A stretch of DNA of 64,000 bases, from the NCBI GenBank assembly GCA_020350425.1, contig CP070716.1:2368967-2432966 (forward strand), in the 5' to 3' direction. The notes beneath the pieces are model-generated. The model saw only the letters and a program-made list of their open reading frames with translations, did no database searches and had not been told where the DNA came from. A program made the translations under genes and the position numbers. The DNA comes from Gemmatimonadota bacterium. Its GTDB lineage: Bacteria; Gemmatimonadota; Gemmatimonadetes; Gemmatimonadales; GWC2-71-9. This document shows positions 15,242-41,284 of the stretch, piece after piece; the first letter of the stretch is position 1; each line of letters opens with the position of its first letter.

Positions 15242-16198
15242 CTACGGCGAGCCCCCGGGCACGGCCGTGCCGTGACACACCGTGCACGCCTGCGGGTTGC
15301 GGCTCCGCAAACGCTCCGCATTGAAGTCGGGCCCGTGGGGGCTGACGCTCCTGTGGCAGCTCACACACGAGCTCTCCGTGTGGCATGCCACGCAGCTCTC
15401 GAGGCTCTGACGCGCCGCTTGCCCATGGCCTGCATTGAAGCTCTGTTGGCCGTCGTGGTAGCCCGTGCTCCGGATCTCGTCAGACGTCAACCCGGCCGTC
15501 TGGTGGCAGTCCTGACAGAACTGCCCGGGATTGTGGCACGAACTGCACTGGGCAGACTGGGACCACGCCTCCGCCGGGTGCGCCGCCACGTAGTCCGCCT
15601 GGTGGTAGCCGGGCGCCGGGTCGGCGCCGCCGGGCCGGTGGCAGGCGAGGCAGTCGGCCCGAACGTGACAACTGGCGCATGCCTCCGGGGCGGGGGCCGC
15701 CACCGCGGCGTGCTCCTGCACCCACAGACCGATATGCGACGCAGGCTTCGGTGCCGCCTGGTGGCACAGACTGCACGGCGACTGGGGCGCAGCCTGGTGC
15801 TCCGCTTCGATGCCGTGGCAGCTGAGGCAATTGTCGACCACTGCCCGCTGGACCGTCATGGCCGGGGCGCCCGCCGCCTGGTGACACGCCGCGCAGTCGA
15901 TTGGCGGGTGCGCCGCGTGACTGAAGTTGTCCGCCGCGTAGGCGCCCGCCGTGGGCGGTTCGTACTCCACGACGGGCTGGATCTGCCCATTGTGGCAGCC
16001 GGCGCACATGGAGGCCGCCGGGTACACGGCCCCCTCACCCGTCACGCCGGAGTGGCACATGGTGCACGATGTGAACAGGGCAGCATGCCGCTCGTGCGGG
16101 AACTGCCCTTGCGATGCGAGCTCCGGAGCCGGCGCCGGGCCCGTTCCCGCGACGGCGGCAATGACCACCCCCACGGCCAGCGTCATCATCGTCTTCAT
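15242..16198 (-). CDS. Periplasmic 12-heme cytochrome c (candidate conduit subunit)
   Basis: Protein of 318 aa with an N-terminal signal sequence and 12 CXXCH motifs, about one per 26 residues: CTMCH, CAGCH, CAACH, CLSCH, CSLCH, CASCH, CLACH, CSSCH, CQDCH, CVACH, CVSCH and CTVCH. This density is like that of the MtrA/OmaB-type cytochromes that sit inside outer-membrane barrels, although sequence identity to either cannot be judged by eye. Its ATG overlaps the stop of the beta-barrel gene (ATGA), so the two proteins are made together. There is no membrane anchor other than the signal. The likely job is to carry electrons from the periplasm into or through the barrel. Confidence 0.88.
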   Translation of the reverse strand: MKTMMTLAVGVVIAAVAGTGPAPAPELASQGQFPHERHAALFTSCTMCHSGVTGEGAVYPAASMCAGCHNGQIQPVVEYEPPTAGAYAADNFSHAAHPPIDCAACHQAAGAPAMTVQRAVVDNCLSCHGIEAEHQAAPQSPCSLCHQAAPKPASHIGLWVQEHAAVAAPAPEACASCHVRADCLACHRPGGADPAPGYHQADYVAAHPAEAWSQSAQCSSCHNPGQFCQDCHQTAGLTSDEIRSTGYHDGQQSFNAGHGQAARQSLESCVACHTESSCVSCHRSVSPHGPDFNAERLRSRNPQACTVCHGTAVPGGSP

Positions 16199-17718
16199 TT
16201 CGCGCTCCGGGCTTCAGGAATCAGGAGGATCGACGGGTGCAGCGTCGGCGTGTCCGGGCTCGACCCGAAGTAGAGCGTCAGGCCGAAGTTGAACCGCCAC
16301 TGATCCCACTTGAACGCCGCTGCGTCGGGCCGCTTCCGCTTCTCCCACAGGTAGCGGGCCTCCGCCATCACCTTGACGTCGGCCATCGGCGTGTAGTCGG
16401 CCCGCAGCCCCCCGTTCAATGCCTCCACGTCGTTGTAGCGGTATTCCATCGGTCGGGAAATCCGGCCGCCATGGGCCGTCAGCACGAGGTCCGGCAGGGG
16501 CGGCACCCACGTCGCGCGCAGGTCCCACCCGACCTGCGTGGACCCGGTGCCCTTGTCGACCCAGTAGTTGCCATCGAAGCGCCACTGCTGGATCCCCGAG
16601 TAGGTCACCCCGAACAGCCCGCGCCACCCGTCGTCCTCGACGGTGCCGAAGCGGTCGGTGGCGTTCGCATCCTCGTACTTGAAGATCTCGCCCCGGCCGC
16701 GCAGCTCGAGCCCCCGGAGGGGCCACCAGTAGACGCTCCCGAAGCCGGCGTTGTAGCCAACAGGATCGAAGGAATTCCAGATCTGCCAGAGGGGGAAGTT
16801 GGGACGATAGCGGCGCCACCCGGCGCTCGCCCGCAGGTTCCGCTTGGGGGTCGTGTAGCCCGCTGTCACGTCCGCGGTACCGACGACCGCCTGCCCGATG
16901 TCGTACTCCACGCCTCCGGTGAGCGAGATGCCGCGCTTGGGGTACCAGGCCAGGTCGAGCGCCGTGCGCTCGGCGAAGAGGTAGTTCGCCGACGAGGCGG
17001 CGTCGATCTCGCGGTGGTAAAGCCAGCGTCCCTCGAAGCCCTTGAGCCGCCATCCCAGCCCGCCGCCGAGGACGTACTGGCGCTCCGTCGGCTGGTACTG
17101 GTCGAGCGGATTTGCATACTGGCTCGTGACCACGAGCGGCGCGCCCGGGGTCATTCCCCAGCCGCCGTAGCCGAAGAGCTCGAGCCTGCGATCGAAGAGA
17201 TAGAGGTCGGCTTTGGCGCCATCCACACCGATGTAGCCGATCCGGGATGGCTCATGGAACCGGCCCAGGAGCACCGTGAGGAACTTGTTCTTGTACTCGC
17301 CGTAGGCCTCGAGCAGCTGCATCGTGGGGTCCACCGCCGGCCAGACCGTCGTCGATGACAAGTCAGTCCCGGCTCGTGCCTTGAGGCGGAAGCTCAGGCC
17401 CTGAACGCCAAGTCCCCACAGCGCCGCGTCGAGCGTGCTGACCAGCGGCGCGCCCTGCCGCTTCCCGCCCTCGGTGTAGTAGTAGCAGGTCGATGTCGCA
17501 CCCTGCCCACACCTCACGGCATAGCCGTTGTACTCCAGGCCCCCGGAGGAGTTGGTGTCGACACTCGCGAATGGGACGCTGTCGAGCTGCCAGCCCTGGT
17601 AGGCGACGGACTGGAACCAGGTGTCGAGACGGACCTGGTACCCTTGGGCGAGCGCCGGTGCCGTCCAGAGCGCCAGCGCTCCGGCAGCAACCAGCACGCG
17701 GACGAAGGACCGTTTCAT
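16195..17718 (-). CDS. Outer-membrane beta-barrel protein (candidate porin of a porin-cytochrome complex)
   Basis: Protein of 507 aa with a signal peptide cleaved near ALAQG (residue 25). The mature chain is made of alternating hydrophobic/polar stretches rich in Tyr and Trp, such as FRLKARAG, LYLFDRRLELFGYGG, RWLYHREIDA and NFGLTLYFGS. It ends close to a strand, as expected for an outer-membrane barrel of perhaps 18-20 strands. The sequence itself does not identify a substrate. Its translational coupling to a 12-heme periplasmic cytochrome parallels the MtrA/MtrB and OmaB/OmbB pairs, so an electron conduit is the best hypothesis. GGGGAGGGG lies upstream of the ATG at 17718. A -10-like TATAGT/TACTAT lies near 17750-17758. 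Confidence 0.78.
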   Translation of the reverse strand: MKRSFVRVLVAAGALALWTAPALAQGYQVRLDTWFQSVAYQGWQLDSVPFASVDTNSSGGLEYNGYAVRCGQGATSTCYYYTEGGKRQGAPLVSTLDAALWGLGVQGLSFRLKARAGTDLSSTTVWPAVDPTMQLLEAYGEYKNKFLTVLLGRFHEPSRIGYIGVDGAKADLYLFDRRLELFGYGGWGMTPGAPLVVTSQYANPLDQYQPTERQYVLGGGLGWRLKGFEGRWLYHREIDAASSANYLFAERTALDLAWYPKRGISLTGGVEYDIGQAVVGTADVTAGYTTPKRNLRASAGWRRYRPNFPLWQIWNSFDPVGYNAGFGSVYWWPLRGLELRGRGEIFKYEDANATDRFGTVEDDGWRGLFGVTYSGIQQWRFDGNYWVDKGTGSTQVGWDLRATWVPPLPDLVLTAHGGRISRPMEYRYNDVEALNGGLRADYTPMADVKVMAEARYLWEKRKRPDAAAFKWDQWRFNFGLTLYFGSSPDTPTLHPSILLIPEARSAK

Positions 17719-20961: not shown

Positions 20962-22956
20962 TCACGAATCGGTGTATTGCGTCCCCCCGGACTCTGGCGC
21001 CGGGGCCCCCGGCGCATCGGCCTTGCCGGCAGCGCTCTCCGCCGGGTGGTGCGGCTCGGAGTGCGCCAGCTCGTCATCGTACCACTGCGCGTGATGGTGC
21101 TTCACGAAGTGCTCCGGCAGGCGGCCGGTGAGCCAGGCCCAGTTCATCGGATAGGCATCGGGATGCGCGATCACGAAGAACAGGTGCCACACCAGGATCG
21201 CGAGCGTCGCGAGCCACGCCTCGTAGTAGTGCACGGTCTGTGAGGCCGGCACGATCCACCACGGCAGGATCTGGACCGCCTGGACCGGGAACCAGAGCAC
21301 GAAGCCGGTGAGCGCCATGATCACCGTGCCCCACACCAGCGCCCAGTACTCGGCCTTCTGGGTGTAGTCGTACCGGCGAAAGCGCGGGTAGCGCTTGGTG
21401 CGCCAAGTGTAGTACTGCAGGTATCCCACCGCGTCGGTCGCGTCGCGCCAGTCCGGCAGCATCGCCTTGAACTCCTCCCTGCCCCGGCGCGACATCACCA
21501 CGTACAGCACGTGGCTCACGGCCTCCACGATGAGCAGCACCGCCGCGATCCGGTGCACGTTGGAGCGCACCGGCTCGTTCATGCCGAGGGCGGTGAGCCA
21601 CCGCACCCACCAGGCATCGGGGAACCGCAGCGCAAATCCAGTGACCACCAGCACAATGAACGCCGCAGCATTGAGCATGTGCTGCGTGACCTGAATGCGG
21701 TCGAGCCGCGTCACGTAGCCCACCCGCCGCTCCTCCCGCCGCCGCTCGATCAGGTAGTAGTTGAACACGACGGCATTGTGCAGCGCCATGAGCCCGATCG
21801 TCGCAGCGATCAGCACGTAGTAGAACAGGCGGATCGCGTTGTTGATCGGATTCGCGGCCATCGAGGCGGTGACGTGCGTATAGCTGGTCGCGAACGCGGC
21901 GTCGGCGTCCGGATGGCACTGCTGGCACGTGGCCGTGAGGTTTGCCGGGTGGATGGTGGACGCCGAGTCGCTCTGGGGCAGCACCGCGTGGGTGGTATGG
22001 CAGCTCACACAGGTGGCGGCGCGCGCGTAGTCGCGGCGCGTCGCCCAGCCGTGATAGCTGTCCTCATAGGTGCCGATCACGCCACCCTGCAGCCCGTACT
22101 TGGCGACGATCTCCGGATCACCGTGGCACTCGCCGCACGTCTCGGTGGCCAGGCGGGCGTCGTAGGTCCGGGCGTGGGGATCGTTGTGGGAGAGAATCAG
22201 GTGCTCCCCGTGGCAGTCCGTGCAGGTGGGGCTGTCTGCGAGGCCGGCGCGCAACGCACGGCCGTGGATGGAGGCGTCGTAGATCTCCTGGACGTCCCCG
22301 TGGCACTGGCCGCACGTGCTGGCCACGTTCACCCGGTTGATCCTGGACTGGGGATCCAGCGCCCCCCGCAGGTCGTGCACCCCGTGGCAATCCGTGCAGC
22401 GGGCGGCCTCACCCTCGCCGTTGCGGCCGTGCACCGACTGGGCGTACGACCCGTAGATCTGCGGCAGCCGGATGGCTTCCTCGGTGCGCAGGCCGGCCTC
22501 CCCGTGGCAGGCGGCGCACATCACGGGCACGTTCTCATGGTGGGTGCGGGCCTCGGGATCGGAGCTGCGCCGGATGTCGTGGCTCCCGTGGCAGGACGCG
22601 CACGTGGGGGCCGTCGCCATGCCTCGCGCCAACGCGTAGCCGTGCAGGCTGCCGCTGAACTCCCGTTCGACCGAGCCGTGGCAGCCGCCGCAATTCGGTG
22701 GCGGTGCGTCGTCGGGATGCGGGAAGCCCACGTAGCCCTGATGACACAGCACGCAGGCCATGCCGAGCGCTCCGTGCACGGAGGACCCGTACTCCTCCTC
22801 CGTGACGACCATCCGGGTGGGGTCCTCCAGGCCGGAGAACATCGCCTCGTTACCGTGGCACATGAGGCAGGCCTGGTTGCCCTGAGCCATGGCGGGTGCC
22901 GCCACAACCGACGCGAGCGCCGCGCAAAGAAGGGCTGACATCAGACGTGTCCGCAT
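20962..22956 (-). CDS. CbcL-like quinone oxidoreductase: 11-heme cytochrome c fused to membrane cytochrome b
   Basis: Protein of 664 aa. A signal peptide (about residues 1-25, AMAQG) is followed by 11 CXXCH motifs between about residues 30 and 345, with the same repeat grammar as its 19-heme neighbour (CASCHGSHDI, CTDCHGVHD, SxHG). The C-terminal half is a multi-helix cytochrome b. Candidate heme b histidines lie in LMALHNAVV, VTQHMLNAAAF, NVHRIAAVLL, VSHVLYVV, QTVHYYEAWL and WHLFFVIAH. A Pro/Ala/Glu-rich tail ends the protein. The architecture (periplasmic multiheme domain plus diheme b) is that of CbcL, which moves electrons from menaquinol to periplasmic carriers in Geobacter. The two fusions in tandem, with different heme counts, suggest two potentials or two partners. 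Confidence 0.88.
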   Translation of the reverse strand: MRTRLMSALLCAALASVVAAPAMAQGNQACLMCHGNEAMFSGLEDPTRMVVTEEEYGSSVHGALGMACVLCHQGYVGFPHPDDAPPPNCGGCHGSVEREFSGSLHGYALARGMATAPTCASCHGSHDIRRSSDPEARTHHENVPVMCAACHGEAGLRTEEAIRLPQIYGSYAQSVHGRNGEGEAARCTDCHGVHDLRGALDPQSRINRVNVASTCGQCHGDVQEIYDASIHGRALRAGLADSPTCTDCHGEHLILSHNDPHARTYDARLATETCGECHGDPEIVAKYGLQGGVIGTYEDSYHGWATRRDYARAATCVSCHTTHAVLPQSDSASTIHPANLTATCQQCHPDADAAFATSYTHVTASMAANPINNAIRLFYYVLIAATIGLMALHNAVVFNYYLIERRREERRVGYVTRLDRIQVTQHMLNAAAFIVLVVTGFALRFPDAWWVRWLTALGMNEPVRSNVHRIAAVLLIVEAVSHVLYVVMSRRGREEFKAMLPDWRDATDAVGYLQYYTWRTKRYPRFRRYDYTQKAEYWALVWGTVIMALTGFVLWFPVQAVQILPWWIVPASQTVHYYEAWLATLAILVWHLFFVIAHPDAYPMNWAWLTGRLPEHFVKHHHAQWYDDELAHSEPHHPAESAAGKADAPGAPAPESGGTQYTDS

Positions 22957-26726: not shown

Positions 26727-27536
26727 TTAAATGTGCATGTGGAACAGCTGATCTACCAGTGCCTCGAAGCGCTCCCGTCCCAGAACCTGCTCTACATTGA
26801 GGTTGGCTTCACCCCCGTCGGCGAGCGTCGGACCCAGGGCGGCCTGGCCATCGACAGCGACGACCTCGCGCAGAGAGCGCTTCACGAGTCGGATCTTGCG
26901 AAGAAACCAGACGAGCGTTCGATCGCCGTGGTAGACATTCGGGACGGCATCCAAGGACTCGTGAGGGGAGATGCGCAGCAACCACTCGTCACCGGCCCCG
27001 GACACCGATCCCGCACGCAACTGCTCGACGTAGCGCTGGTTGACGCTCGCGACCTCCCCCGAGATCGGCGTCTCGAGGGGGATCGTCATCCGGCCGCGCA
27101 CGACCCACCCGCACGGCTCGCCCCGCTTGAGCAGCGCGCCGGCGCGGGGGGCCACGACGTCGTCCAGCGGATGCAGGACCCGCATGACGTGCCCGTCGAG
27201 CCCGGCGGTCACCCCGTCGGGTCCCGCATCTCGTAGCCAGAAGTGGCCCGCCGTATAGGGCCGGTCCAGATGGAGCTCGCAATCCGCGATGAGCCTCGAG
27301 ACATAGGCGTTCACCTGATCCTCCACCGCCACCTGCGACGGCTCGAGTTCCGTTGCCTCGTCGGCCGGCAGATACTCATTCGCGGCGACCGCCCCCGACC
27401 CATGCCCCCGCAGTGCGTGGAACAGCTCGCACTGTTCACAGTCGTAGTTGCGGTCGCACAGCCTGTAGCTCAGGACACCCGCCTGGACCCAGATACAGGG
27501 AAGCTCTTCGTTGCGTTGGATTGGGGATACCGCCAT
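26727..27536 (-). CDS. GcvH-fold protein A with N-terminal four-cysteine motif, no lipoyl lysine
   Basis: Protein of 269 aa. The N-terminal part has CIWVQAGVLSYRLCDRNYDC followed by EQC, four cysteines that could bind metal or an FeS cluster. The rest resembles the H protein of glycine cleavage (PISGEVASVNQRYVEQLRAG and later EWLLRISP). In true GcvH a lysine about seven residues before the S/T-P of the second strand is lipoylated; here that position is arginine (VVRGRMTIPLETP), so lipoylation is not expected. ATG at 27536 is used because GGGGGA is correctly spaced. It sits in an operon with an NrfD protein, a ferredoxin and two more GcvH-like proteins. The function is unknown; glycine cleavage is not supported. 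Confidence 0.75.
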   Translation of the reverse strand: MAVSPIQRNEELPCIWVQAGVLSYRLCDRNYDCEQCELFHALRGHGSGAVAANEYLPADEATELEPSQVAVEDQVNAYVSRLIADCELHLDRPYTAGHFWLRDAGPDGVTAGLDGHVMRVLHPLDDVVAPRAGALLKRGEPCGWVVRGRMTIPLETPISGEVASVNQRYVEQLRAGSVSGAGDEWLLRISPHESLDAVPNVYHGDRTLVWFLRKIRLVKRSLREVVAVDGQAALGPTLADGGEANLNVEQVLGRERFEALVDQLFHMHI

Positions 27537-27572
27537 GATCATTCCCCCGAGCGTTGCGCACCGCCGGGCGCG

Positions 27573-28268
27573 CTACTCGCTCAACAGAAACTCCCGTGCC
27601 ACCTCAGCCCACTGCTCCGGCGCCAGCACCCGCGCAAATCCGTCGACCGGCACGCCGCCGTCGGGCAGCACCGTTCCCAACTCCCCAGCCGGCATCGCCC
27701 GCAGCTTTTCGACCGTGTCCGCCATCCAGGCCCGCGCCAGGCGGCCGCTCAGCAGATTCTTGAGCACGGCGCCGCGATTCGGTACGCGCACCTTGAGGAA
27801 CCAGCCCTCCCCGTATGGATCGGCCGCGAGCTGCGGCGAGCCCAGCACCGCATCGTTCACCGCCACGACTTCACCGGTCACCGGGGAGAGCATGGGGATG
27901 GATTCGGCTTCCACGTCGACGGCCCATCCCCGCTCGCCCTGCGACAGCCGGGCGCCGACCGTGGGGAGGCCGAGGCCCCCTGGAGTCCCCAGCAGTCGCC
28001 GGGCGAAGTCGTCCATCCCGACCTTCACCAGGTCACCATCCTCGGGCGTGGCCCACGTATGGCCCTGGTGGAAGTAGACCCCCTCCGGGGTTTCAAACCA
28101 TAGCGCCGGCTTCCGTGCCGGGCGCGCTGCCGCTCCCGCCTCCACCTCGTGCCGGGCGGGCGAACCGAGCAGCCGCCAGAATCCGACCAGCACCAACAGG
28201 TACCCGATCACGATCAGGTACTCGACGCCCTTGGTGGCGAAGATGTCTATGCTCTCGATACCCTGCAT
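27573..28268 (-). CDS. Membrane-anchored GcvH-fold protein B, no lipoyl lysine
   Basis: Protein of 231 aa with one N-terminal transmembrane helix (about residues 15-34) and a soluble GcvH-like domain: GVYFHQGHTWATPEDGDLVK, VGMDDFARRLLG, then SPVTGEVVAVNDAVLGSP and GEGWFLKVRVPN. These are the strand patterns of glycine cleavage H protein, but the usual VESVKA lysine is replaced (VDVEAES). A C-terminal extension of about 60 residues ends with a short helix. ATG at 28268 is chosen because it gives the clean membrane start. It lies between the NrfD gene and GcvH-like gene A. The anchor suggests it works at the inner membrane next to the NrfD/ferredoxin complex. Confidence 0.75.
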   Translation of the reverse strand: MQGIESIDIFATKGVEYLIVIGYLLVLVGFWRLLGSPARHEVEAGAAARPARKPALWFETPEGVYFHQGHTWATPEDGDLVKVGMDDFARRLLGTPGGLGLPTVGARLSQGERGWAVDVEAESIPMLSPVTGEVVAVNDAVLGSPQLAADPYGEGWFLKVRVPNRGAVLKNLLSGRLARAWMADTVEKLRAMPAGELGTVLPDGGVPVDGFARVLAPEQWAEVAREFLLSE

Positions 28269-28278
28269 GGTGTCGCTC

Positions 28279-29544
28279 CTAGGCTGCAACGATGTCCACG
28301 CGCCGTTCTCCCTCACCCGTGCGATCCACCTCCGCGAAGCTCAGGACCGGCATCCGATTGACCACCCAACGGAACACCCAGATCTCGGCCGAGATCACCG
28401 CGAGTGTCACGACGATCTCCATCCACGTCGGGACATAGCGCTCGGCCATGTACCACTTGAATCCGATCACCGACACGTTGAGCCGGTTGAGCACGATCCC
28501 CAGCAACGTGAGGACCGCGGCGGCCCGGATCACCGGGAGGCGACCCTTCCGGAATCCGGAGAGGAACAGCGCCGCGGGCACGCCCACGAAACCCACGATC
28601 TCCAGCAGGTACCAGGCTCCCCACCCGGTGCCCAGGTACGTCCACCGCTGCCCGTGCACGAACACGATCAGCTGGAGGAAGAGGTACACGAACATCGCGC
28701 CCGCACAGATGCGAGCCAGCCCGCGCAGGATGTCGTCGTGCGTGGCGCGCAGGCGCTGCCCCACCCGATGGTGGAACACCTTGTGGGTGATGCTGCCTTC
28801 GAAGATCACCATCGACAGCCCGGCGAAGACGCTGGAGACCACGAACAGGATCGGGATGAACTCCGAGTACCACAGGGGGTGCACCTTCCCCTTGGCCATC
28901 AGGTACAGCGCCCCGAGCCCCGACTGGTGCAGCAGCGACAGGGTGATCCCGAAGATCACCGCGCCGAGGGTGAGGGCCTTGAGGACGCGTCGCACGCGCC
29001 GCCAGCCGAGCCATTCCGCCACCGCCGGGGAAAACTCGATGAACTCGGCCATCATGTAGAGCATGAAGTGCCAGGCGACGAGGAAGAGCACCGAACTCAC
29101 ACCGAATGAGTTGCCGATGATCGGGTTGATCACGTTCCACGGCCGTCCCAGGTCGAGCAGCAACGCGCCGGCGTAGAACACGTAGGCCAGGAATCCATTG
29201 AGTACCGTCACCCGGACGATGGGGTGGTACTTCTCCTGGCCCAGGATGTAGACCATGAACGTCACGACGTAGGCGCCGCCCGCGAAGGCGACCCCGGTGA
29301 TCACGTCGAAGCCGATCCACAGGCCCCAGGGGACGTCCTGCGACAGGTTGGTGATCGACCCCAGGCCCTTGGCGAACCTGATCACGAGCAGCACCCCACC
29401 CAAGAGGACGATGGCGCTCGTGATCACGTTGAACGGCGTGAGCAGCCGGCCGCGGGGCTTCAGCTCACCCAACAGGAACGTCCCGAAGCGCCGCAGCTCT
29501 GGGCCGAAGCGCGGCCGTCCGCCGTCCACGAGATGCATCGTCAT
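28279..29544 (-). CDS. NrfD/HybB-family quinone-interacting membrane subunit
   Basis: Protein of 421 aa with about ten transmembrane helices, of the polysulfide reductase NrfD family (HybB-like). Such subunits hold a quinone site and exchange electrons with a periplasmic iron-sulfur partner. Visible family features are PWGLWIGFDVITGVAFAGGA near residues 72-91, LDLGRPWNVINPI, FLVAWHFMLYMMAEFIEFSP and SLLHQSGLGALYLMAKGKVHPLW. The ATG overlaps the stop of the ferredoxin gene (ATGA). No hydrogenase or molybdopterin subunit is encoded nearby, so the complex is not a hydrogenase-2; electrons may pass to multiheme cytochromes instead (inference). Confidence 0.9.
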   Translation of the reverse strand: MTMHLVDGGRPRFGPELRRFGTFLLGELKPRGRLLTPFNVITSAIVLLGGVLLVIRFAKGLGSITNLSQDVPWGLWIGFDVITGVAFAGGAYVVTFMVYILGQEKYHPIVRVTVLNGFLAYVFYAGALLLDLGRPWNVINPIIGNSFGVSSVLFLVAWHFMLYMMAEFIEFSPAVAEWLGWRRVRRVLKALTLGAVIFGITLSLLHQSGLGALYLMAKGKVHPLWYSEFIPILFVVSSVFAGLSMVIFEGSITHKVFHHRVGQRLRATHDDILRGLARICAGAMFVYLFLQLIVFVHGQRWTYLGTGWGAWYLLEIVGFVGVPAALFLSGFRKGRLPVIRAAAVLTLLGIVLNRLNVSVIGFKWYMAERYVPTWMEIVVTLAVISAEIWVFRWVVNRMPVLSFAEVDRTGEGERRVDIVAA

Positions 29545-30491: not shown

Positions 30492-31181
30492 CTATGAGTC
30501 GAGAAACGTCCTCTGGAGATCCTGCCATGCGGCACCGTCGAGGGTCGCCAGAATGCCCGACGGGATCTCTCCGCCATCGGCCAGCGCCACGCCGACCCCT
30601 GCACCACCCGGCAGCCGGAGCAGATGCTCCCGCAGCTGGTGGTACTGGCTCCGCGTCCAGTCGACGGCCGAGTCGGCGATCGACCACGTGGGAACCTCGA
30701 ACTCGACCTGTTCCGGCTCGATGCGGTACAGCCAGCTCCCGTGCTGCTCGTGGAGCCCGCTCCATTCCGTCTCGCCGGATGGCGTGGGATTGACCTCGAG
30801 GATGCGCCCGGTCACGGGCGAGCGGACTGTCAGGAAGTGCCCATTCCGCCCTACGCGCAGCAGCGGCTCACCCTTCTTGACCTGGGGTCCGCCTTCGTGC
30901 AGCTCGATGTGGTACGGCGCACCCACCAGCCCCAGCAGCAACGGATGGACCCCGACGAGCAACTCACCGCCCTCCAGGATCCGGCTCCAGGTGAAGGTCG
31001 GCTGCAGGAAGACACCTCTGGGCACGCGCTTGACCGCCTCGGAGAGCGGCGTGAGCCCCGGGAGCCCGTGTTCCACCCCCGCGACGACACCACGCCGCCT
31101 CTGCACGAGGAAGTAATTGGCGGCGATCAGGACAGCCACCGTGAGAATCGCGAGGACGACGACCATGACACGCTCCGGCAA
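30492..31181 (-). CDS. Membrane-anchored GcvH-fold protein C, no lipoyl lysine
   Basis: Protein of 229 aa with an N-terminal transmembrane helix (about residues 6-25), a basic QRRR stop and a GcvH-like domain: GVFLQPTFTWSRILEGGELL, VGVHPLLLGLVG, VRSPVTGRILEVNPTPSG and GSWLYRIEP. The lipoyl-lysine position is not a lysine (RNGHFLTVRSP). TTG at 31181 is preferred because AAAGGAG precedes it by eight bases; an ATG at 31166 is the alternative. This is the first gene of the long operon that continues through the ferredoxin, NrfD, GcvH B, GcvH A, sensor kinase, NtrC and archaemetzincin. It is the third lipoate-less GcvH paralogue within 5 kb. Confidence 0.72.
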   Translation of the reverse strand: MPERVMVVVLAILTVAVLIAANYFLVQRRRGVVAGVEHGLPGLTPLSEAVKRVPRGVFLQPTFTWSRILEGGELLVGVHPLLLGLVGAPYHIELHEGGPQVKKGEPLLRVGRNGHFLTVRSPVTGRILEVNPTPSGETEWSGLHEQHGSWLYRIEPEQVEFEVPTWSIADSAVDWTRSQYHQLREHLLRLPGGAGVGVALADGGEIPSGILATLDGAAWQDLQRTFLDS

Positions 31182-31488
31182 GTGTTCATCTCCTTTTCTT
31201 GGCAAGGAGGATGCCGGACGGCGCACGGCGCCGCTTGGACTAGGTAAGTCTTTGTTCAGCTGTCACTTAAGACGATGTGCGGCGACAGGGCGCGCGCTAG
31301 GCTACTGTAGAGGATTTCTACGCTTGATTCCGGCCGGATCGCCTTCGCCCCGCATAACTCGTTGGATTGAAGTGCGTTAGCCTCGGTGGGGGATTTCTCG
31401 GCGGCCGCTGTCGAGAATATCTACAACAATCCGGTCGTCGGGTGCCGGACTCTCCGACACCCGACCCGGGGCAGTGTGGTGAGCTTCC
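31182..31488. other. 307-bp intergenic region with inverted repeat and hairpin
   Basis: No gene is recognisable here. It holds the promoter region of the GcvH-like C operon, a GTAGA-N5-TCTAC inverted repeat at 31307-31321 that could bind a dimeric regulator, and near the left end the terminator hairpin of the 22-heme gene (31437-31465). The middle contains an AT-richer patch around 31243-31272 with GTAAGTCTTTG and CACTTAAG. Confidence 0.5.
31437..31465 (-). terminator. Terminator of the ligandless-bc operon
   Basis: GTCGGGTG (31437-31444) pairs with CACCCGAC (31458-31465); an inner CGGA/TCCG extends the stem with one mismatch. It lies 24 bases past the stop of the 22-heme gene and is followed on the minus strand by a T-rich run (GATTGTTGTAG). 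Confidence 0.6.
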
Positions 31489-33486
31489 CTACCCCCCGGG
31501 GAGCGGCTCGATCTGGTGACACAGATGGCACGCCGCGGGTGCGTTGTGCTCCACCCGGTCGGCGTGGCACACCGTGCACACCTGACGCGACCATTCGGTG
31601 ATCCCCTTCGCCTTGTCGCCGTGGCACGTACTGCACTGCGAGTGCCCGAACGCGAGGGCGTGGCGGTCCTGCGCCCCGCCGCGGTGGCAGGAGAGGCAGT
31701 CGGCCTCGGGTTGGTGGTGGAAGTCGTGGCATGACACGCAGTCCACGGCTGCACCGCTCATGTTGGGTGCGGCGTGGCACATGGTGCAGGAGAGTCCCGC
31801 CTCGCGGTGCGGATCGTGCGGGAAGTCCCCGGTCTCGGTGGCCACGGGCGCCTTGGGCGCCCCGCCGGGGCATTCATGGCACTCGGCGCAGTTCTTGGCG
31901 CCGATCTGGGCGTGATGACAGCCGACGCAGTCGGACGGCGAGGTCAGCCTCGTCTTCCCGTGGTCGTCAAGCGGCGTATGGCAGCTCGTGCATTCGAGCC
32001 CGGCGTCCAGCACGTGCCGCTCGTGATCGAACGTCGCACCGCGGAAGGACAGCTCGCGGCGTTCCACGCCCAGGTGACACTGCAGGCAAACGTTCTCGCT
32101 CACCCGCGGCCCGAGATCCACCTCTGGCGCCGTGTACGGCAGGCGGCCGATGCGCACGGCATCTTCCACCAGCTCCAGGCTCGCCCGCAGCAGCTCGTCG
32201 GCGTAGGCGATGTTGTGTGCTCCCTTGCCCCGCTCGACGAAGTCCAGATTTCCACGGGCAAGGCCGAGCAGCGAGTCCACCTGCACGCGCACCCGCACCG
32301 GGGCCGAGCCGGCGGCCCGGGTCGCCCCCTCCACTACGCGCTTCGTGAGGCCCAGCTTGCGGTCCATCTCCTGCTGCCACGACGGGAGGATGTTGGCGTA
32401 GCGGATGCCGTGGCACGAGAGGCAAGACGCCTCCCCCGCGAAGCGTACCGACTCGTGCGCGCTCACGTTGCGCGGCAGCTCGTGGCACCCGGTGCACGAG
32501 ACCCGTGCGAGGAACATGGAGCTGGGCACATCGTCGGCCCCGTGCCCGCCGATTCCTGCGTAGAGCTGCTGCTGCGCCTCGTGCACCCGCCGGTGGCACG
32601 CCGCACAATCAAGCTCCGCCGTCTCCTTGAGAGAGAAGAGCCGGTGCACGATTTCGGCGTGGCACTGCGTGCACTCCACGTTGTGCTCGGCGATGTGCAC
32701 CCGGTGGACCAGGGTCGTGTTCTCGAACTCCTCGATACGCTCCGGCCGATTGTGGCACGTCCAACAGCGTTGCTCGTCGGCCTCGCCCGTGCCGCGGGTC
32801 ACCTCCTCGTGGCACGACACGCAGGAGACGAGGTCCTCGACGTACTGCTCGTGGTCCACCACGAACCCCGCCGGCGACACCACGCGCGGCGGCGAGGTGT
32901 GGCACGCGACGCAGCCGGTCGCGACCTCCTCGGCTTCGGCCGCCTTGAAGTGACACAGATTGCACGTGGTCTGCGTGACCGCGAGGTGCTCGCCTTGCAC
33001 GATCTGGGAATGACACGAGGTACAGCGCAGCTGCTTGCCGCGGCGTAGCTCGCCCAAGTGCTGGGTGTGGTCGAACCGCACCCCCATGTAATTCACCACG
33101 CCCTCGACCTTGCGGAGCGAGTGGCACCCCGAGCGCAGGCAGGCGGCGTCCTCGATCTCGGCCCACGGCTTCGTGCCGTAGGCTCCCGTCACGTAGCGCA
33201 CCACCTGATTGGCCGCCTGGAACTTGCCCATGGCTTCCGCTTTGATGCCTGGGGCGTAGTGGCACTTGATGCACGGGACGTCGTTGTGCGTGGAGGTCGC
33301 CCAGGAATCGTAGTAGGGCTGCATGATGTGGCAGTTCGTGCAGAACCCCGGCTGAGCGCTGTACTCGACGAACCCCACCGTGCCGATGGCTGCCAGGATC
33401 ACGGCGAGCACGCTCACCTGCACGGCGATCTTCAGCGGCCGCGAGAGGCGCTCGAACCGCTGCTTCACAGATCCCGTCTCGGCCAT
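31489..33486 (-). CDS. NapC/NirT-anchored large multiheme cytochrome c (21 CXXCH plus one CX4CH)
   Basis: Protein of 665 aa. An N-terminal membrane helix (about residues 20-40) leads into the NapC/NirT signature CTNCHIMQPYYDSW, followed by THNDVPCIKCHYAPG. I then count motifs along the whole chain to a total of 21 CXXCH, with an additional CLRSGCH (CX4CH) as the third site. NapC-type domains oxidise quinol and pass electrons to periplasmic hemes. Here the domain is extended into a very long heme wire, interrupted by one heme-free helical stretch at about residues 345-435. It is the last gene of a four-gene operon, one base after the 9-heme gene. A role as periplasmic wire fed by the neighbouring cytochrome b or directly by quinol is inferred. 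Confidence 0.9.
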   Translation of the reverse strand: MAETGSVKQRFERLSRPLKIAVQVSVLAVILAAIGTVGFVEYSAQPGFCTNCHIMQPYYDSWATSTHNDVPCIKCHYAPGIKAEAMGKFQAANQVVRYVTGAYGTKPWAEIEDAACLRSGCHSLRKVEGVVNYMGVRFDHTQHLGELRRGKQLRCTSCHSQIVQGEHLAVTQTTCNLCHFKAAEAEEVATGCVACHTSPPRVVSPAGFVVDHEQYVEDLVSCVSCHEEVTRGTGEADEQRCWTCHNRPERIEEFENTTLVHRVHIAEHNVECTQCHAEIVHRLFSLKETAELDCAACHRRVHEAQQQLYAGIGGHGADDVPSSMFLARVSCTGCHELPRNVSAHESVRFAGEASCLSCHGIRYANILPSWQQEMDRKLGLTKRVVEGATRAAGSAPVRVRVQVDSLLGLARGNLDFVERGKGAHNIAYADELLRASLELVEDAVRIGRLPYTAPEVDLGPRVSENVCLQCHLGVERRELSFRGATFDHERHVLDAGLECTSCHTPLDDHGKTRLTSPSDCVGCHHAQIGAKNCAECHECPGGAPKAPVATETGDFPHDPHREAGLSCTMCHAAPNMSGAAVDCVSCHDFHHQPEADCLSCHRGGAQDRHALAFGHSQCSTCHGDKAKGITEWSRQVCTVCHADRVEHNAPAACHLCHQIEPLPGG

Positions 33487-33487
33487 C

Positions 33488-34720
33488 CTAAGGCTGCTCC
33501 TCCCGCAGCTTGAACCAGGCGAGGACGATCACCGCGAGCGTGAGGAACCACACCGGAATAAGCAGGAGCTTGTGCTCCCACTGCTCCTCGGCGTGCACCT
33601 CCGCGGTCGCTCGGATGATCCCCGTATTCGACCGCACGGCGAGGCCCAAGTCCTCCAGCCGCTCGAAGTTCAGGCTGTGTTGTACGAGGGCGATCTGATT
33701 GTATTCCGAGACGGCACTCTGGTAGCGGAACCGCTCGTCGGCCACCTCGTGCCCCATCTCCACCATCTCCTCGATCGCATCGGCCGCGTAATGCAGCTCC
33801 TCGGTGGCACGCAGCACTTCCTCCTGCAGCTCCACCCCCATGAGCGCGGGAGCGCTCTCGGGCTCGTGGCACCGAACGCACAGGGCCGCGATCGCCTCGG
33901 GTGCCGTGCGTTCCGTGCCGTGGTTGCTGTGGCATCCGAGGCAGCCAGGCAGTGTCCCGCTGCGGGCCGGTCCCCCGTGAGGACCCTGGTAGAACGCCCG
34001 CTCGAGGAGCAGGTGGCACCGGCCACACACGTCCGCGATCTGCGTGACCGCCGGCGGCAGCGCCGCGTGGGAGCCATGGCACCCGATGCACGTCGGCGAG
34101 GCGAAGTTGCGCTTCTCGAATACGCCGATGCCGTGCGCCCCGGTGCGATAGCGCTCGTACTGGTCGATCGGCTCGCCGTACTTCGCCATGAGCTGCGCAT
34201 CCTCGTGACACCTCCCGCAGGTGGCCGGGATGTTCGTGGGGTGGACCTCGCTGCGGGCGTCCTCAGGTGGCAGGATCAGGTGGGCGTTGTGGCAGTCGGT
34301 GCAGGTGGGCGCGTCGGTGTTGCCCTGCTCGAGCAGCAGCTGCCCGTGGCGGCTCGTGCGGAACTCGGCGAGCTGATCGGCCGCCAATCCGAATTGCCGC
34401 ATCTGGTTGGGGTCGGCGTGGCACACGCTGCACAGCTCGATGATCTCCAACTTGGTGGGCGTCCCCAGGAAGCGCCCCCGGTGGGCCGGGTCGATTTCGT
34501 ACGCGGTCGGGTCGCCACCGTGGCAGTCGTCGCACCTGATGCCGTAGTCCGAATGCACCCCGAGGGTGAACGAACGCCGCTTGTCCGCGTGGCAGATGAT
34601 GCAGCCGTACGCCGAGTCATCCTGGGCCGCGAGTCCCTGCGGCGCCCAACCGGTAGTCGGAGCGGCGGGCGCGGCTCCCACCAGGAGCGCTGCCCCCAGC
34701 GCGAGGAGCGTCCCAGTCAT
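33488..34720 (-). CDS. 9-heme periplasmic cytochrome c with C-terminal membrane anchor (module A)
   Basis: Protein of 410 aa with a signal sequence at the N terminus and nine CXXCH motifs (CIICH, CDDCH, CSVCH, CTDCH, CGRCH, CIGCH, CGRCH, CLGCH, CVRCH) in the first 280 residues. A helical segment follows, and one transmembrane helix near residues 383-403 ends in a short basic tail. The plan is the same as that of the 9-heme protein at 40016-41284, and individual repeats align (CTDCHNAH with PPEDARSEVHPTNI, versus CLSCHPAH with PPSDPLSSVHPVNV). Its ATG overlaps the stop of the cytochrome b gene. It probably replaces cytochrome c1/f as the electron acceptor of the bc-type complex. Confidence 0.88.
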   Translation of the reverse strand: MTGTLLALGAALLVGAAPAAPTTGWAPQGLAAQDDSAYGCIICHADKRRSFTLGVHSDYGIRCDDCHGGDPTAYEIDPAHRGRFLGTPTKLEIIELCSVCHADPNQMRQFGLAADQLAEFRTSRHGQLLLEQGNTDAPTCTDCHNAHLILPPEDARSEVHPTNIPATCGRCHEDAQLMAKYGEPIDQYERYRTGAHGIGVFEKRNFASPTCIGCHGSHAALPPAVTQIADVCGRCHLLLERAFYQGPHGGPARSGTLPGCLGCHSNHGTERTAPEAIAALCVRCHEPESAPALMGVELQEEVLRATEELHYAADAIEEMVEMGHEVADERFRYQSAVSEYNQIALVQHSLNFERLEDLGLAVRSNTGIIRATAEVHAEEQWEHKLLLIPVWFLTLAVIVLAWFKLREEQP

Positions 34721-36064: not shown

Positions 36065-36526
36065 CTAGCGCTCCGTCACGTACACCGCACCGTCCCGCAC
36101 GAACACTCCGTAGCGGGCGAGCGGCGCGGTCGTGAGACCGGTCACGACGTTACCGTGGAGATCGTACACCACGTAGGAACAGGGGGAGTACACGCGCAAC
36201 GATGCCTCATCCCACTCCAGGATACAGTCGTCGCTCGGCGAGACGCCCTGCAGGGCGAAGTACTCGGCGGCGTTGGCGCGCACCACCAGGATCGCCCGCT
36301 CTCCCCAACGCACCAGCCGGCTGGCGCCCACCGGGAAGTCGGCCTCCCGCACCACGCGGTAGGCCGGCTGGATTTCGGGGATCTCGAGGTGCCCTGCGGG
36401 GAGGACGTAGAGCCCGATGCTCAGCGCGATCGTCGCGAGAATCAACGTGACGACCCCGCCGAGCAGCAGGTCGTTGACCCCGATGCCGGAGCCCTTCCCG
36501 TCGACCCGCCCTTCCGTCACACTCAC
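36065..36526 (-). CDS. Rieske-fold protein that has lost all four [2Fe-2S] ligands (module A)
   Basis: Protein of 153 aa with one N-terminal membrane helix (about residues 20-42) and a C-terminal Rieske-like domain. It aligns with the intact Rieske at 39524-40006, for example YDLHGNVVTGLTTAPLARYG against [20 protein letters not shown]. Box I, CTHLAC in the intact protein, is SPSDDC here; box II, CACH, is SPCS. The four ligands Cys, His, Cys, His are all serine (96, 98, 114, 117), while both disulfide cysteines (Cys101 and Cys116) remain. The fold should survive without a cluster. GTG at 36526 is preferred, as GAGGAG lies six bases upstream. It is followed after one base by the PEWY-less cytochrome b gene. 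Confidence 0.85.
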   Translation of the reverse strand: MSVTEGRVDGKGSGIGVNDLLLGGVVTLILATIALSIGLYVLPAGHLEIPEIQPAYRVVREADFPVGASRLVRWGERAILVVRANAAEYFALQGVSPSDDCILEWDEASLRVYSPCSYVVYDLHGNVVTGLTTAPLARYGVFVRDGAVYVTER

Positions 36527-36693: not shown

Positions 36694-38259
36694 CTACTTC
36701 CTCACCACCTCCGGGCCAATCGCGCGCTGATTGACCGGCAGCGGGTTGGGGACGCCGTAATGGGCCGCTCCTTCGTTGATCGAGGCCCGCATCAGTGCCC
36801 GGAGGAACTTGGGGTTGTGCACGCCGTTGCCGCTCGTCGCGTGCGCGCTGATTCTCACCACACGGTTCGGGCTGACCCTCACATAGAACCGATCAAACCA
36901 CGGGGTGTCGTCGGTGAAGGCCAGTTGGGCATTCCACAAGATCCCTTCGGCCACCGTGAACGTCTCGTCGCCCACGTCGAGGATCTTGCCGCCCTCCTGC
37001 GCGACGATCGACACCAGCAGTCCGGTATCGCCCGCGTCCAGCGTGTCGTTGGCGTTCACGTCGTTCCAGATCTTCTCAACGTAGCCGCTCAGCTCTGCCT
37101 TGAAGTTCTCGTAGGCGTTCCGCGCCACGCTCTCGCTGATATGGCAGGGCAGGCAGGCCGTGAAGCGCTGCTCCGTCACCGCACAGTTGTGCCCACCCAC
37201 CGGGATACCGTCACTGTCCACGCAGGGAATCGCCTCGAAGAGGTGTCCCACGCTCTGGTACAGGAAGTCTCCTCCCGCGTCCTGGACCTCGAACATCTCG
37301 ACGTGGCAGGTCGCGCACAGCCGCGGGTTCGCATCGACGTCACCGTGCGTCGGGACGAGACCGTCCTGCCAGTCCAGACTGTCCGGCCACCAACCGATGT
37401 TCTCGCCCAGGACCAGCGGTCCCTGGGCCCCGTGCGGCCCGCCGGTCGTCGCCGCCGGCACCGATCGCCGACTGTGGCACTTGACACACAGGTTGCGCGG
37501 CGAGTCCTCATCGAGCGGCGCGCGCAGCTGCGCAGGGAGATCGTGGCTGTGCGGATCGTGGCACACCGCACACACGATGTCGAGCGCTCCGGTGTCGTCC
37601 TTCTCGAGGTAGTTGGCGTTCTCACCGAACTGGGTCAGGAGGGCGACGCGGCCGTTGTGGCACTGGCCGCAATCGCTGCGGGCCGAGGCAAAGCTCGACA
37701 CGTTGCCGTGCGCCGAGTTGGACCACTGCTCCACGAACGGGTGGTGGGTGCCCTCGTGGCAGTCGCCGCACCCGTTCCCCAGGCCGGAATCGGCCAGGAT
37801 GGACGCCAGCGGCACCGTATTCTGGGGATTCGCCGCGTGGGCAGCGCCCGGACCGTGGCAGCTCTCGCACTGCACGTCGAGGTAGACCGCGCGTCCCGCC
37901 GCATCGGCCGAGTCGAGCACGTTGATCCCGGCCGGCTCGGTCAGCGCGTTGCCGTTCTCGCTGATCGCGTGGCAGCCCTCGCACAGGGGCAGGGCATGCC
38001 CAGAGGCCTGCAGGGTCGCCCACGCACCGGCGTGCTTCGTCATGCCCCAATCGCGGGCCTGATCCGCGTGACAGTTGCCGCACGTGGTCTTACCGGCCGC
38101 GACGTCGGTGTAGCCGAGGAAGCCATTGACGGAATCGGGAGGCGGATTGAACGGGTCGCGTGCGTCAGAGGTGATCGTGTCCTCGGTACACGCACCCATG
38201 GCGAGGAACCCCAGCGCGAACACAGCCAGGACCGCTTTTCTCACGTCGGAATGTCCCAT
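36694..38259 (-). CDS. 9-heme cytochrome c lipoprotein
   Basis: Protein of 521 aa. ATG at 38259 has GGAGGAG upstream and yields a lipoprotein signal with lipobox LAMGAC (about residue 24). Nine CXXCH motifs fall in the first 370 residues: CGNCH, CEGCH, CESCH, CGDCH, CGQCH, CAVCH, CVKCH, CATCH and CLPCH. The spacing resembles cytochrome c554-like multiheme proteins. The last 150 residues have no heme site but contain VGDETFTVAEG and a terminal HNPKFLRALMRASINEGAAHYG, a helix typical of the end of some multiheme oxidoreductases. It stands alone between two bc operons, with a terminator behind it and a TCTTTAGG element in front. Confidence 0.88.
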   Translation of the reverse strand: MGHSDVRKAVLAVFALGFLAMGACTEDTITSDARDPFNPPPDSVNGFLGYTDVAAGKTTCGNCHADQARDWGMTKHAGAWATLQASGHALPLCEGCHAISENGNALTEPAGINVLDSADAAGRAVYLDVQCESCHGPGAAHAANPQNTVPLASILADSGLGNGCGDCHEGTHHPFVEQWSNSAHGNVSSFASARSDCGQCHNGRVALLTQFGENANYLEKDDTGALDIVCAVCHDPHSHDLPAQLRAPLDEDSPRNLCVKCHSRRSVPAATTGGPHGAQGPLVLGENIGWWPDSLDWQDGLVPTHGDVDANPRLCATCHVEMFEVQDAGGDFLYQSVGHLFEAIPCVDSDGIPVGGHNCAVTEQRFTACLPCHISESVARNAYENFKAELSGYVEKIWNDVNANDTLDAGDTGLLVSIVAQEGGKILDVGDETFTVAEGILWNAQLAFTDDTPWFDRFYVRVSPNRVVRISAHATSGNGVHNPKFLRALMRASINEGAAHYGVPNPLPVNQRAIGPEVVRK

Positions 38260-38361
38260 CACGATCTCCTCCCCCGCTTTGTTGACGATCACGTCCCGAA
38301 GAGTCTCAAGACCCTGCTACTATTAATTGCAGCGGAAAAGTCGCGCAATAGAGGCCACCCA

Positions 38362-38424: not shown

Positions 38425-39522
38425 TCAGATGGCTGGATCGGCCGTGTATCCGAGATAGGTCAGCAGGAGCACGTAGAGGATCATTACCAGCCCGATCCAG
38501 GTGAACAGCGGGCTCCGCTCGCCGCGAGCTGAGCGCCGGTCCAACACGGGGATCAGCAGCAGGAACACTCCGGCCAGGCCGAACCCGAGAATGCCAACGA
38601 TCTCGCCCTCGATCCCGAGGATGTGCGCCGGCAAGTACTTCAGCGTCTGGAACATGAACATGAAGTACCACTCCGGCTTGATCCCAGCTGGCGCGGGCGC
38701 GAACGGGTCGGCCTCCTCGCCGAGGTGGGCGGGGAAGAACGCCGCCAGCGCAGCCAGCACGGCCAGCGCGACGAGCCAGCCGACCAGGTCACGCAGCAGG
38801 AAGTTCGGGAAGAACGGCATCCGTCCCCGGCTTCCGCCACCCTGTTGCACGTCGAGCGGCACGCTCATCCCCTGCTTCTGCACCAGGAACAGGTGCAGCC
38901 CCAGGAAGAACACGGCGCACAGTGGGAGCACCGCGACGTGAATCGCGTAGAACCGCGTGAGCGTGGCACCGGTCACGTCGTCGCCGCCCCGCAGCAACCG
39001 CAGCATGAAGTCGCCCACCAGGGGCACCGCCCCCATGATCTCGGTGCCCACCCGCGTCGCGAAATAGGCCAGCTCGTTCCACGGCAGCAGGTAACCGGTG
39101 AAGCCGAACGTCACCGCCAGCCCGAGCAGCCCCACACCCGTGTACCACGTGAGCTCGCGCGGCGGCCGATAGGCCTTGAGTAGCAGGACGCTGAACATGT
39201 GAATGAACAGCGCGAAGATCATCAGGTTGGCGGACCACGAGTGGATCGATCGCACGAGCCACCCGAACTCCACCTCGGCCATGAGGAACTGCACCGACTC
39301 GTAGGCCTGCTCGGCGGTGGGCCGGTAGTAGAACAGCAGCAGGATACCGGTCGTCACCTGCACCACGAACAGGAACAGCGTCATGCCGCCCAGGTAGTAC
39401 CACAGGGTGTGACGATGAACCGGTACGTCCTTCTTCTTGGCCACCGCCGTGAAGGCGTCGAACCCGATGCGGTCATCGAGCCAGCGCCACGACCGATGCC
39501 ACCACGCTCGCACTCGTGTCAC
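38425..39522 (-). CDS. Canonical cytochrome b (b6/subunit IV fusion) with PEWY (module B)
   Basis: Protein of 365 aa with about eight membrane helices. The heme b histidines lie in [20 protein letters not shown] and [39 protein letters not shown] forms the Qo-side loop. The Qo motif is intact: [19 protein letters not shown]. This is therefore a working quinol-cytochrome c oxidoreductase subunit. It follows the intact Rieske gene by one base and is the last gene of the module B operon. Compared with the paralogue at 34717-36063 it lacks the long polar linker and the Pro-rich tail. Confidence 0.94.
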
Positions 39523-39523
39523 G

Positions 39524-40006
39524 TCAGGCTCCCCGGCTCACGACAATCTGGTCACCCCGCACGTTCACCTCGTACTGCTCGAGGGGCGCCGGGGGCGGGC
39601 CCTGGATGTTGCGCCCATTCAGGTCGAAGTGGCCGTTGTGGCAGGCGCACCAGATGTGGCCGATATCGTCCCGGTACTGCACGATGCAGGCCAGGTGGGT
39701 GCACGCCGCCGAGAACGCCCGAAACTCGCCGGACGGCGTGCGGACGAGGATGCCCGGACGGCTGCCGAACTTGAAGATCTCCGCACTGTTGGGCGGCACG
39801 TCGTTGGGCCCGAACGGGAGGGTCACCGTCGCCGCCGTGGACTCGGCGGCCGCCGGCGGCACGAGATAGCGCCCCGCCGGGTAGAAGATCGCGAGGATGA
39901 GCCCTCCGACGCTCGTGCTCAGCAACCACGTCGTGAGCGTCCTGCTCAAGACCCAATCCACGAAACGCCTGCGTGACGTCGCCTGCGGTGTCCCCGTCTC
40001 AGCCAT
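39524..40006 (-). CDS. Rieske [2Fe-2S] protein of the bc complex (module B)
   Basis: Protein of 160 aa with an N-terminal membrane helix (about residues 26-46) and a complete Rieske cluster-binding domain: box I CTHLAC and box [11 protein letters not shown], giving Cys, His, Cys and His ligands and the disulfide pair. The terminal pattern [12 protein letters not shown] is typical. It accepts one electron from quinol at the Qo site of the cytochrome b encoded one base downstream and passes it to the periplasmic cytochrome, here probably the 9-heme protein encoded upstream. It is the intact reference against which the ligandless paralogue at 36065-36526 can be read. Confidence 0.95.
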
Positions 40007-40015
40007 CGCTATTCC

Positions 40016-41284
40016 TCACGTCTCCGTCACCGTCGCCCGGTAGTCGACCTCTCTGATCTTGAGGAGGAGCCCCGCGATGAGCGCCAGGATGATCACCACG
40101 GATACCGCCAGCCCGGTGCGCCGGAAGCGGAGCTCGTTCATGGCGTCTTCGCCGCGCGCAAACGCCCGCACGGCCACCTCCAGCCCATCCGTCACCTCGG
40201 CGCCCACGATCTCCCTGTCGAACGAGTGCACCGCCGCGCGGGCCGTGACCAGCGCATCGTTGGCACCGCCCAACTCGAACAGCGCCTGGCTCACCTCCAT
40301 GCCGTGGTTCTCGGCCGCGCCGAGGAGCGAGTCGGCGGCGTGATAGGCGGCCTGGAGCGAGTCGATCATGCTCCGCATCGCGAGCGCGGTCTCACCGCCC
40401 CGGTCTCCAGGCGCGTGGCACCGCGCGCACACCGCCCCCTCATCGAGGCCCAGCATGTCGTCGGCCGGCCGCGTCACCTCGTGGTTCTGGTGACACGTGG
40501 CGCAGCCGGGGACGCCCAGCATCGTGAACGTCGTGGCGTGCCGGCTCTCCTCGTAGTAGTCGGCCATGACGCTGTGGCATTGCCCGCACACGTTGCCCAC
40601 CCAGGAGATCCCCGGCGGGGTCGCGCCGTGGTTCCCGTGACAGTCGTTGCATGTCGGCGCCGAGAGGTCCCCCTGCTCCGACAGCGCCGCCCAGTGGACG
40701 CTGCGCTCGTATTTCTCGCGCTGGTCGGTGGGGATGCCGTACGGCTTCATGTGGTCGGCGTCACCGTGGCAGGCCGCGCACGTCGCGGCGACGTTCACCG
40801 GGTGCACGCTCGACAGCGGATCGGACGGTGGCCGGACGTTGTGCGCGGGATGGCAGCTCAGACACGTGGCGACCGCCGTGTCGCCGAGCTCGAGCAGCCG
40901 CCTCCCATGAACGGACGTGGCATACTCCGTGACCTGGTCCACCCGCAGCGATGGGTTGTAGCGTCGCATGAAGTCCGCGTCCGAATGGCACCGGCCGCAG
41001 ACGTCGAGCACCTGCCGGCCGCGGGGCCGGCCCACGAACCCGAGCTCGCGCGCCATGCCACCCATCCCCGCGATCGAGGCGTCACCACCGTGGCACGCCA
41101 CGCAGCCGAATCCCTTCTCGGCGTGGATGTCCCGCTGAAACGCCTCCACCGGGGCGGCGAGCCGCCCTCCCAACGCCGAGTGGCACGTGACGCAGTTGTT
41201 CTCCTGCGCCTGCGCGCCGCCCGCCGCGCCGGTGAGCCCGACCAACCAGATGAATGCCGCGATCCCTACTCGCTGCCTGCCCAT
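40016..41284 (-). CDS. 9-heme periplasmic cytochrome c with C-terminal membrane anchor (module B)
   Basis: Protein of 422 aa. ATG at 41284 shares one base with the stop of the upstream gene (TAATG) and gives a clear signal peptide (residues 1-28, AQAQE). Nine CXXCH motifs (CVTCH, CVACH, CGRCH, CLSCH, CAACH, CNDCH, CGQCH, CATCH, CARCH) are followed by a long helical segment and one C-terminal membrane helix (about 392-412). It is a paralogue of the module A protein at 33488-34720 with the same repeat order. It lies directly before Rieske and cytochrome b, so it likely takes the place of cytochrome c1 or f. Confidence 0.88.
   Translation of the reverse strand: MGRQRVGIAAFIWLVGLTGAAGGAQAQENNCVTCHSALGGRLAAPVEAFQRDIHAEKGFGCVACHGGDASIAGMGGMARELGFVGRPRGRQVLDVCGRCHSDADFMRRYNPSLRVDQVTEYATSVHGRRLLELGDTAVATCLSCHPAHNVRPPSDPLSSVHPVNVAATCAACHGDADHMKPYGIPTDQREKYERSVHWAALSEQGDLSAPTCNDCHGNHGATPPGISWVGNVCGQCHSVMADYYEESRHATTFTMLGVPGCATCHQNHEVTRPADDMLGLDEGAVCARCHAPGDRGGETALAMRSMIDSLQAAYHAADSLLGAAENHGMEVSQALFELGGANDALVTARAAVHSFDREIVGAEVTDGLEVAVRAFARGEDAMNELRFRRTGLAVSVVIILALIAGLLLKIREVDYRATVTET

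Follow-up and report, generated by a model that had tools for sequence, protein, structure and literature searches.

Rieske/cytochrome b complexes are the textbook example of quinone-based electron bifurcation. In the canonical complex, quinol gives one of its electrons to the Rieske cluster, and haem bL receives the second. The window analyzed here, a stretch of 64,000 nucleotides from a Gemmatimonadota genome, encodes two Rieske/cytochrome b modules, and the Rieske-like protein of one of them has none of the four ligands of a [2Fe-2S] cluster. This raises the question of what such a protein does beside a cytochrome b. We think it probable that it is a cluster-free Rieske in a second, paralogous Rieske/cytochrome b complex, which would serve as a linear quinone-to-multihaem wire.

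The Rieske-like gene and the intact sister module

The gene in question (36065-36526) was pointed out in an earlier note made from the sequence alone. Its open reading frame is real and lies on the minus strand, which the note had left unstated; the plus-strand translation of the interval is unrelated. The frame runs from GTG to TAG with GAGGAG six bases 5' of the GTG, and a single base separates its stop codon from the ATG of a cytochrome b gene. Two sets of genes are relevant, and all of them are on the minus strand:

31489..33486, minus strand: multihaem cytochrome c with 21 CXXCH and an N-terminal NapC/NrfH-like anchor
33488..34720, minus strand: nonahaem cytochrome c with 9 CXXCH and a C-terminal hydrophobic segment
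34717..36063, minus strand: cytbX, PEWY-less cytochrome b of 448 amino acids, with STWV for PEWY and a loop eight residues shorter
36065..36526, minus strand: PS, cluster-free Rieske-like protein of 153 amino acids, boxes SPSDDC and SPCS
36694..38292, minus strand: multihaem cytochrome c with 9 CXXCH and a lipoprotein-like N-terminus
38425..39522, minus strand: paralogous cytochrome b with PEWY, the canonical Qo motif
39524..40006, minus strand: intact paralogous Rieske protein (CTHLAC/CACH) with a twin-arginine N-terminus
40016..41281, minus strand: nonahaem cytochrome c of the intact Rieske/cytochrome b module

The motifs of PS are as the earlier note described them. Box I is SPSDDC in PS and CTHLAC in the intact copy (39524-40006), box II is SPCS against CACH, and the two ligand Cys and two ligand His are all replaced by Ser while both disulfide Cys are retained. 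The note was fair in stating that the remainder of the domain aligns well, although the similarity is modest, with 26% identity over 90 residues between PS and the intact Rieske of the same locus (E 2e-11). PS has an N-terminal transmembrane helix (residues 17-41) followed by a Rieske-type beta head. An AlphaFold2 model based on 16 orthologues has a Rieske fold with a mean pLDDT of 86.6. Its top fold match is the Chlorobaculum tepidum Rieske protein (PDB 8hn2; Z 16.2, 2.5 Å, 105 residues), which is also the top sequence match in a profile search (E 7e-14); unlike PS, this protein has Cys and His ligands at both boxes in the alignment.

Rieske folds without ligands are known from NirD, the small subunit of NADH nitrite reductase, which is a soluble accessory subunit and is not known to be tied to cytochrome b. 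NirD structures (PDB 2jo6, 3c0d, 4aiv; Pfam Rieske_2) match the fold of PS with Z 12.5-14.1. In sequence, however, the profile matches of PS go to b6f-type Rieske proteins, and Rieske_2 scores 24.1 bits on PS, under the Pfam gathering cut-off of 27; membership of PS in the NirD/Rieske_2 family was rejected on this score.

The nonahaem proteins at 33488-34720 and 40016-41281 are paralogues, with 32% identity over their full length, and the three-gene unit of nonahaem cytochrome c, Rieske protein, and cytochrome b therefore seems to have been duplicated. A cytochrome of the type encoded at 36694..38292 is the upstream neighbor in many orthologous loci, though not in all.

Loss of ligands, selection, and export anchor across Gemmatimonadota

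Orthologues were sought in two sets of genomes. The search of 201 genomes (the genome of the window and 200 relatives) gave a match in 18, some of which were to intact Rieske proteins. The profile search of 395 Gemmatimonadota genomes gave a match at E 1e-6 in 59, with strong matches (at least 84.9 bits) in 28 and all others at 55 bits or less; the lowest strong match is a contig-end fragment in genome G009. In the fetched loci, ligand-free boxes were found at 32 places in 32 genomes and intact boxes in 14. A 33rd place (L040), where the contig ends before the boxes, and two repeats of genomes already counted (L023 and L024) are outside these counts. Match scores of the fetched loci were bimodal, at least 135 bits or at most 54 bits. 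A scan of genome contigs with PS, which finds close relatives only, returned two loci, both in Gemmatimonadota metagenome-assembled genomes. PS had no match in plasmid sequences; cytbX matched 101 plasmid records, and the 20 listed were all below 60% identity, with none covering 80% of the query.

The two classes of protein are sharply separated. Every ligand-free orthologue keeps none of the four ligands and both disulfide Cys (32/32), every intact Rieske protein in the fetched loci keeps all ligands and both Cys (14/14), and no intermediate was seen among these 32 and 14. Rieske reading frames beside the other cytochromes b of the phylum also keep the ligand motif (15/15). Since the same ligand loss recurs in 32 of 32 orthologues, chance, decay, and sequencing error, including the error at both boxes that the earlier note had considered, are excluded.

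The replacement residues differ across the family. The earlier description of four Ser is correct for the protein of the window, but the pattern occurs in only one of the 32 orthologues, that of the window's genome, and a designed ligand swap to four Ser was rejected on this count. At the ligand Cys site of box I, Ser is found in 25 orthologues, Ala in six, and Gly in one; at that of box II, Ser is found in all 32. Both ligand His sites are freely variable and never His. The family consensus is [SAG][PST]xDGC for box I (ending in DDC in PS of the window) and SPC for box II, and none of the 32 deviates at Cys101, Cys116, the SPC segment, or the apex Asp. This Asp takes the place of the apex Leu of CTHL in all 32. 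The Pro loop GPPP is replaced by GL[TS]x in nearly all rows, 30 of the 31 readable ones (one row is cut off ahead of this loop, another carries Ile instead of Leu, and a third carries Asp instead of Thr/Ser), and Pro is present in 13/13 intact copies. Loss of the ligands thus comes together with loss of the residues that shield the cluster, the apex Leu and the Pro loop.

Purifying selection acts on the PS gene, as the earlier note had proposed in calling it selected. Values of dN/dS (NG86) are 0.05-0.23 in the 12 closest pairs, far below 1, and are 0.05-0.27 for the intact paralogues. Conservation at the former cluster tip does not significantly exceed that in the rest of the head (mean entropy of 1.17 bits for the tip and 1.33 bits for the base of the head; permutation p 0.22), which leaves the idea of the tip as a specially conserved docking patch unsupported.

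The export anchor also separates the two classes. A motif R[RK]x[FLIVMW] ahead of the anchor is present in 13/13 cytochrome-b-linked intact Rieske proteins and in 4/32 ligand-free ones; a looser twin-arginine-like pattern is found in 5/32 of the latter. The 14th intact row (L043) has no adjoining cytochrome b and was omitted from this comparison. Hydropathy averaged over the best 19-residue segment spans 1.31-1.94 in intact proteins and 2.13-3.16 in ligand-free ones, with no overlap (Mann-Whitney p 2e-7, which overstates independence because the rows share descent). The anchor of PS looks Sec-type rather than Tat-type, unlike that of every intact paralogue, and the difference may reflect a change from Tat to Sec export. 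Without insertion of a cofactor ahead of export, such a change would be expected. The apparent change would offer a natural way to test whether the cofactor is what makes Rieske proteins use Tat. PS most probably carries no [2Fe-2S] cluster, judging from its sequence and those of its relatives: the nearest homologues have no ligands (32/32), and the Tat-type anchor, Pro loop, and apex Leu are lost as well. The term cluster-free, used in the earlier note, is appropriate to this extent.

The PEWY-less cytochrome b and its multihaem partners

The Qo motif PEWY and four haem-ligand His are the features of interest in the cytochrome b encoded beside PS. In cytbX of the window, the four His (H120, H134, H221, and H236) are all kept, and the same holds for 30/30 sufficiently complete cytbX rows; incomplete or repeated rows (L087 and L112) are not among the 30. 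PEWY is found in none of these 30 rows, which have STWV, STWI, SSWI, SSWV, PTWG, TTWL, or ALGF instead, and the loop behind the Qo motif is eight residues shorter in 15/15 aligned rows. At this place, 24 rows of other cytochrome b paralogues from the phylum carry PEWY or PEWF, and five carry APWY. The APWY proteins (L096, L097, L098, L099, and L104) each lie beside an intact Rieske protein with ECTHLGC and CPCH boxes.

In the cytochrome b tree, the PEWY-less clade makes up one side of a branch with support of 100/100. A sister relation of cytbX to the PEWY paralogue of the same locus is at most tentative in this tree (supports of 84/83 and 87/68, with long branches), although the nonahaem partners of the two modules are clear paralogues. 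The predicted model of cytbX is poor (pLDDT 61).

PS and cytbX occur together. In all 30 loci with room for it, cytbX follows PS on the same strand, and the pairing with a PEWY-less cytochrome b, first noted in the window, extends to the homologues. Strong cytbX matches (at least 450 bits) were obtained in 25 of 395 genomes, with a partial match at a contig start in one more (G392), and all 26 genomes are among the 28 with PS. In the other two (G031 and G009), PS lies where a contig ends. Across the 395 genomes, strong cytbX matches were confined to those with PS, and the next matches are at 300 bits.

Multihaem cytochromes usually complete the locus. Among the 24 loci with at least 4.5 kb downstream of cytbX, a same-strand reading frame with 9 CXXCH is present in 22 and one with 17-27 CXXCH in 21. 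Three single-contig genomes (L026, L075, and L080) keep PS and cytbX without a full 9-/21-haem pair at the usual place. HmcB- and HmcC-like subunits, a 12-CXXCH cytochrome beside a 507-amino-acid protein without a family match, and b561-multihaem fusions are also encoded near PS, a neighborhood that suggests electron transfer linked to quinone and to the surface.

Loss of PEWY needs to be interpreted with care. In the accessible text of a study in which the Glu of PEWY was replaced, turnover is described as only partially compromised (PMC9162462), so PEWY loss alone does not prove that quinol oxidation has been lost. From the motifs of both subunits, we infer that the cytbX complex does not bifurcate quinol.

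A proposed linear route for electrons and its alternatives

Linear transfer is the simplest picture of this complex, because the cluster ligands and the Qo motif are gone and the ligands of the b haems are kept. Its members would be the cluster-free Rieske protein, cytbX, the membrane-anchored nonahaem cytochrome c, and the 21-haem, NapC-anchored cytochrome c. Electrons would pass in a single line between a quinone site on cytbX, haems bH and bL, and the multihaem chains, which would lead toward the periplasm or the outside, and flow could be in either direction. In complexes already known, the anchor of the Rieske protein links one monomer of the dimer to the other, and its head caps the Qo face. 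PS may have been kept for architecture, fixed over what was the Qo face as a lid or as a clamp of the dimer, and perhaps it seats the nonahaem cytochrome. The apex Asp would alter the contact of its head with cytochrome b. Both the wire and the lid are roles that we infer, and the earlier suggestion of a structural or docking subunit may describe PS. A broader statement, to which we give an even chance, is that a selected complex occurring phylum-wide abandoned the bifurcation of quinol in both of its halves at once, the cluster ligands and the Qo motif; on this view it would run as a wire, linear and perhaps reversible, that links the quinone pool to a chain of some 30 c haems, and its cluster-free Rieske protein, exported by Sec, would be a fixed lid over the closed Qo site.

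The strongest alternative, which we consider unlikely, is a deranged, catalytically dead relic complex whose only remaining use is the stabilisation of another complex, a role that has been suggested for Acidocella. According to the accessible text of that work (PMC10715153), the Acidocella Rieske protein has lost three or four cluster ligands and kept its two disulfide Cys, much like PS; the deranged bc1 has also lost its haem bH ligands and is regarded as non-functional and thought to stabilise Complex I. The intact paralogous complex in the genome of the window would have left the second copy free to lose function. However, loss of the bH ligands, described for Acidocella/Acidiphilium in the same text (PMC10715153), is not seen in cytbX, in which the ligands of both b haems are kept and PEWY is lost. 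The text also has no apparent dedicated multihaem chain for Acidocella (PMC10715153), whereas one is usually present at PS loci. The 9-haem partner of cytbX usually retains its 9 CXXCH, and conservation of the PS/cytbX module, together with multihaem partners of its own, extends over several families. What the module has lost is limited to the machinery of bifurcation (the cluster ligands, the Pro loop, the apex Leu, PEWY, and the Qo loop), which speaks against a relic.

A pure assembly or dimer clamp, in which only the transmembrane helix and folded head matter and electron flow is independent of PS, also seems improbable as the whole explanation. The bridging position of Rieske anchors in known complexes, the persistence of the head fold under purifying selection, and a tip without special conservation would all be expected of a clamp. 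It is compatible with the linear wire and is partly contained in it, but alone it leaves the invariant apex Asp and SPC unexplained.

Invariance of these residues, together with Cys101 and Cys116, could also be taken to mean that PS still transfers electrons, either through its two Cys as a redox-active dithiol/disulfide centre or through another cofactor held at the tip. The Cys pair has indeed outlived the cluster that it once stabilised. A structural disulfide accounts for the same conservation, and PS has neither a CxxC arrangement nor a conserved His at the old ligand sites, making this reading very improbable. A pseudogene or a sequencing or assembly error might be suspected in a single genome (one contig of 2.87 Mb with an estimated completeness of 75%), but it has practically no chance of being correct and is refuted by open frames, low dN/dS, and the recurrent ligand loss in 32 genomes.

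The linear wire can also be compared with Rieske/cytochrome b complexes that have multihaem cytochromes. In Kuenenia stuttgartiensis, the accessible text of one study describes such complexes (Kuste4569-4574 and Kustd1480-1485), in which, as at PS loci, multihaem cytochrome c replaces cytochrome c1/f and several complexes occur per genome (PMC12954380). Their Rieske proteins bind [2Fe-2S] and are read there as bifurcating (PMC12954380), whereas PS and cytbX have neither the ligands nor PEWY. In contrast to the Kuenenia complexes, no NAD(P) oxidoreductase was found among the neighbors of PS that were scanned. The literature consulted, which included few subscription papers, yielded no description of this Gemmatimonadota module and no complex in which loss of cluster ligands and PEWY with retention of b-haem ligands is a conserved trait.

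If the linear wire is correct, a paralogue that has the b-haem chain and neither half of the bifurcation machinery would show the role of the scaffold without bifurcation. The same genome also encodes a sister complex that is intact, which would then be a natural control for the contributions of the cluster and of PEWY.

Other genes in the window deserve mention. Three GcvH-like proteins (26727-27542, 27573-28316, and 30492-31226, minus strand), each above the Pfam GCV_H cut-off, are encoded in the respiratory gene cluster, beside the HmcB/HmcC-like genes. At 15242-17718 (minus strand), a 12-CXXCH cytochrome adjoins a 507-amino-acid, secreted-looking protein with no Pfam or NCBIfam match, and the pair is a possible MtrA/MtrB-like outer-membrane conduit. 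The genes at 17868-20765 and 20962-22956 (minus strand) encode 19 and 11 CXXCH, respectively, fused to a cytochrome b561-like membrane domain.
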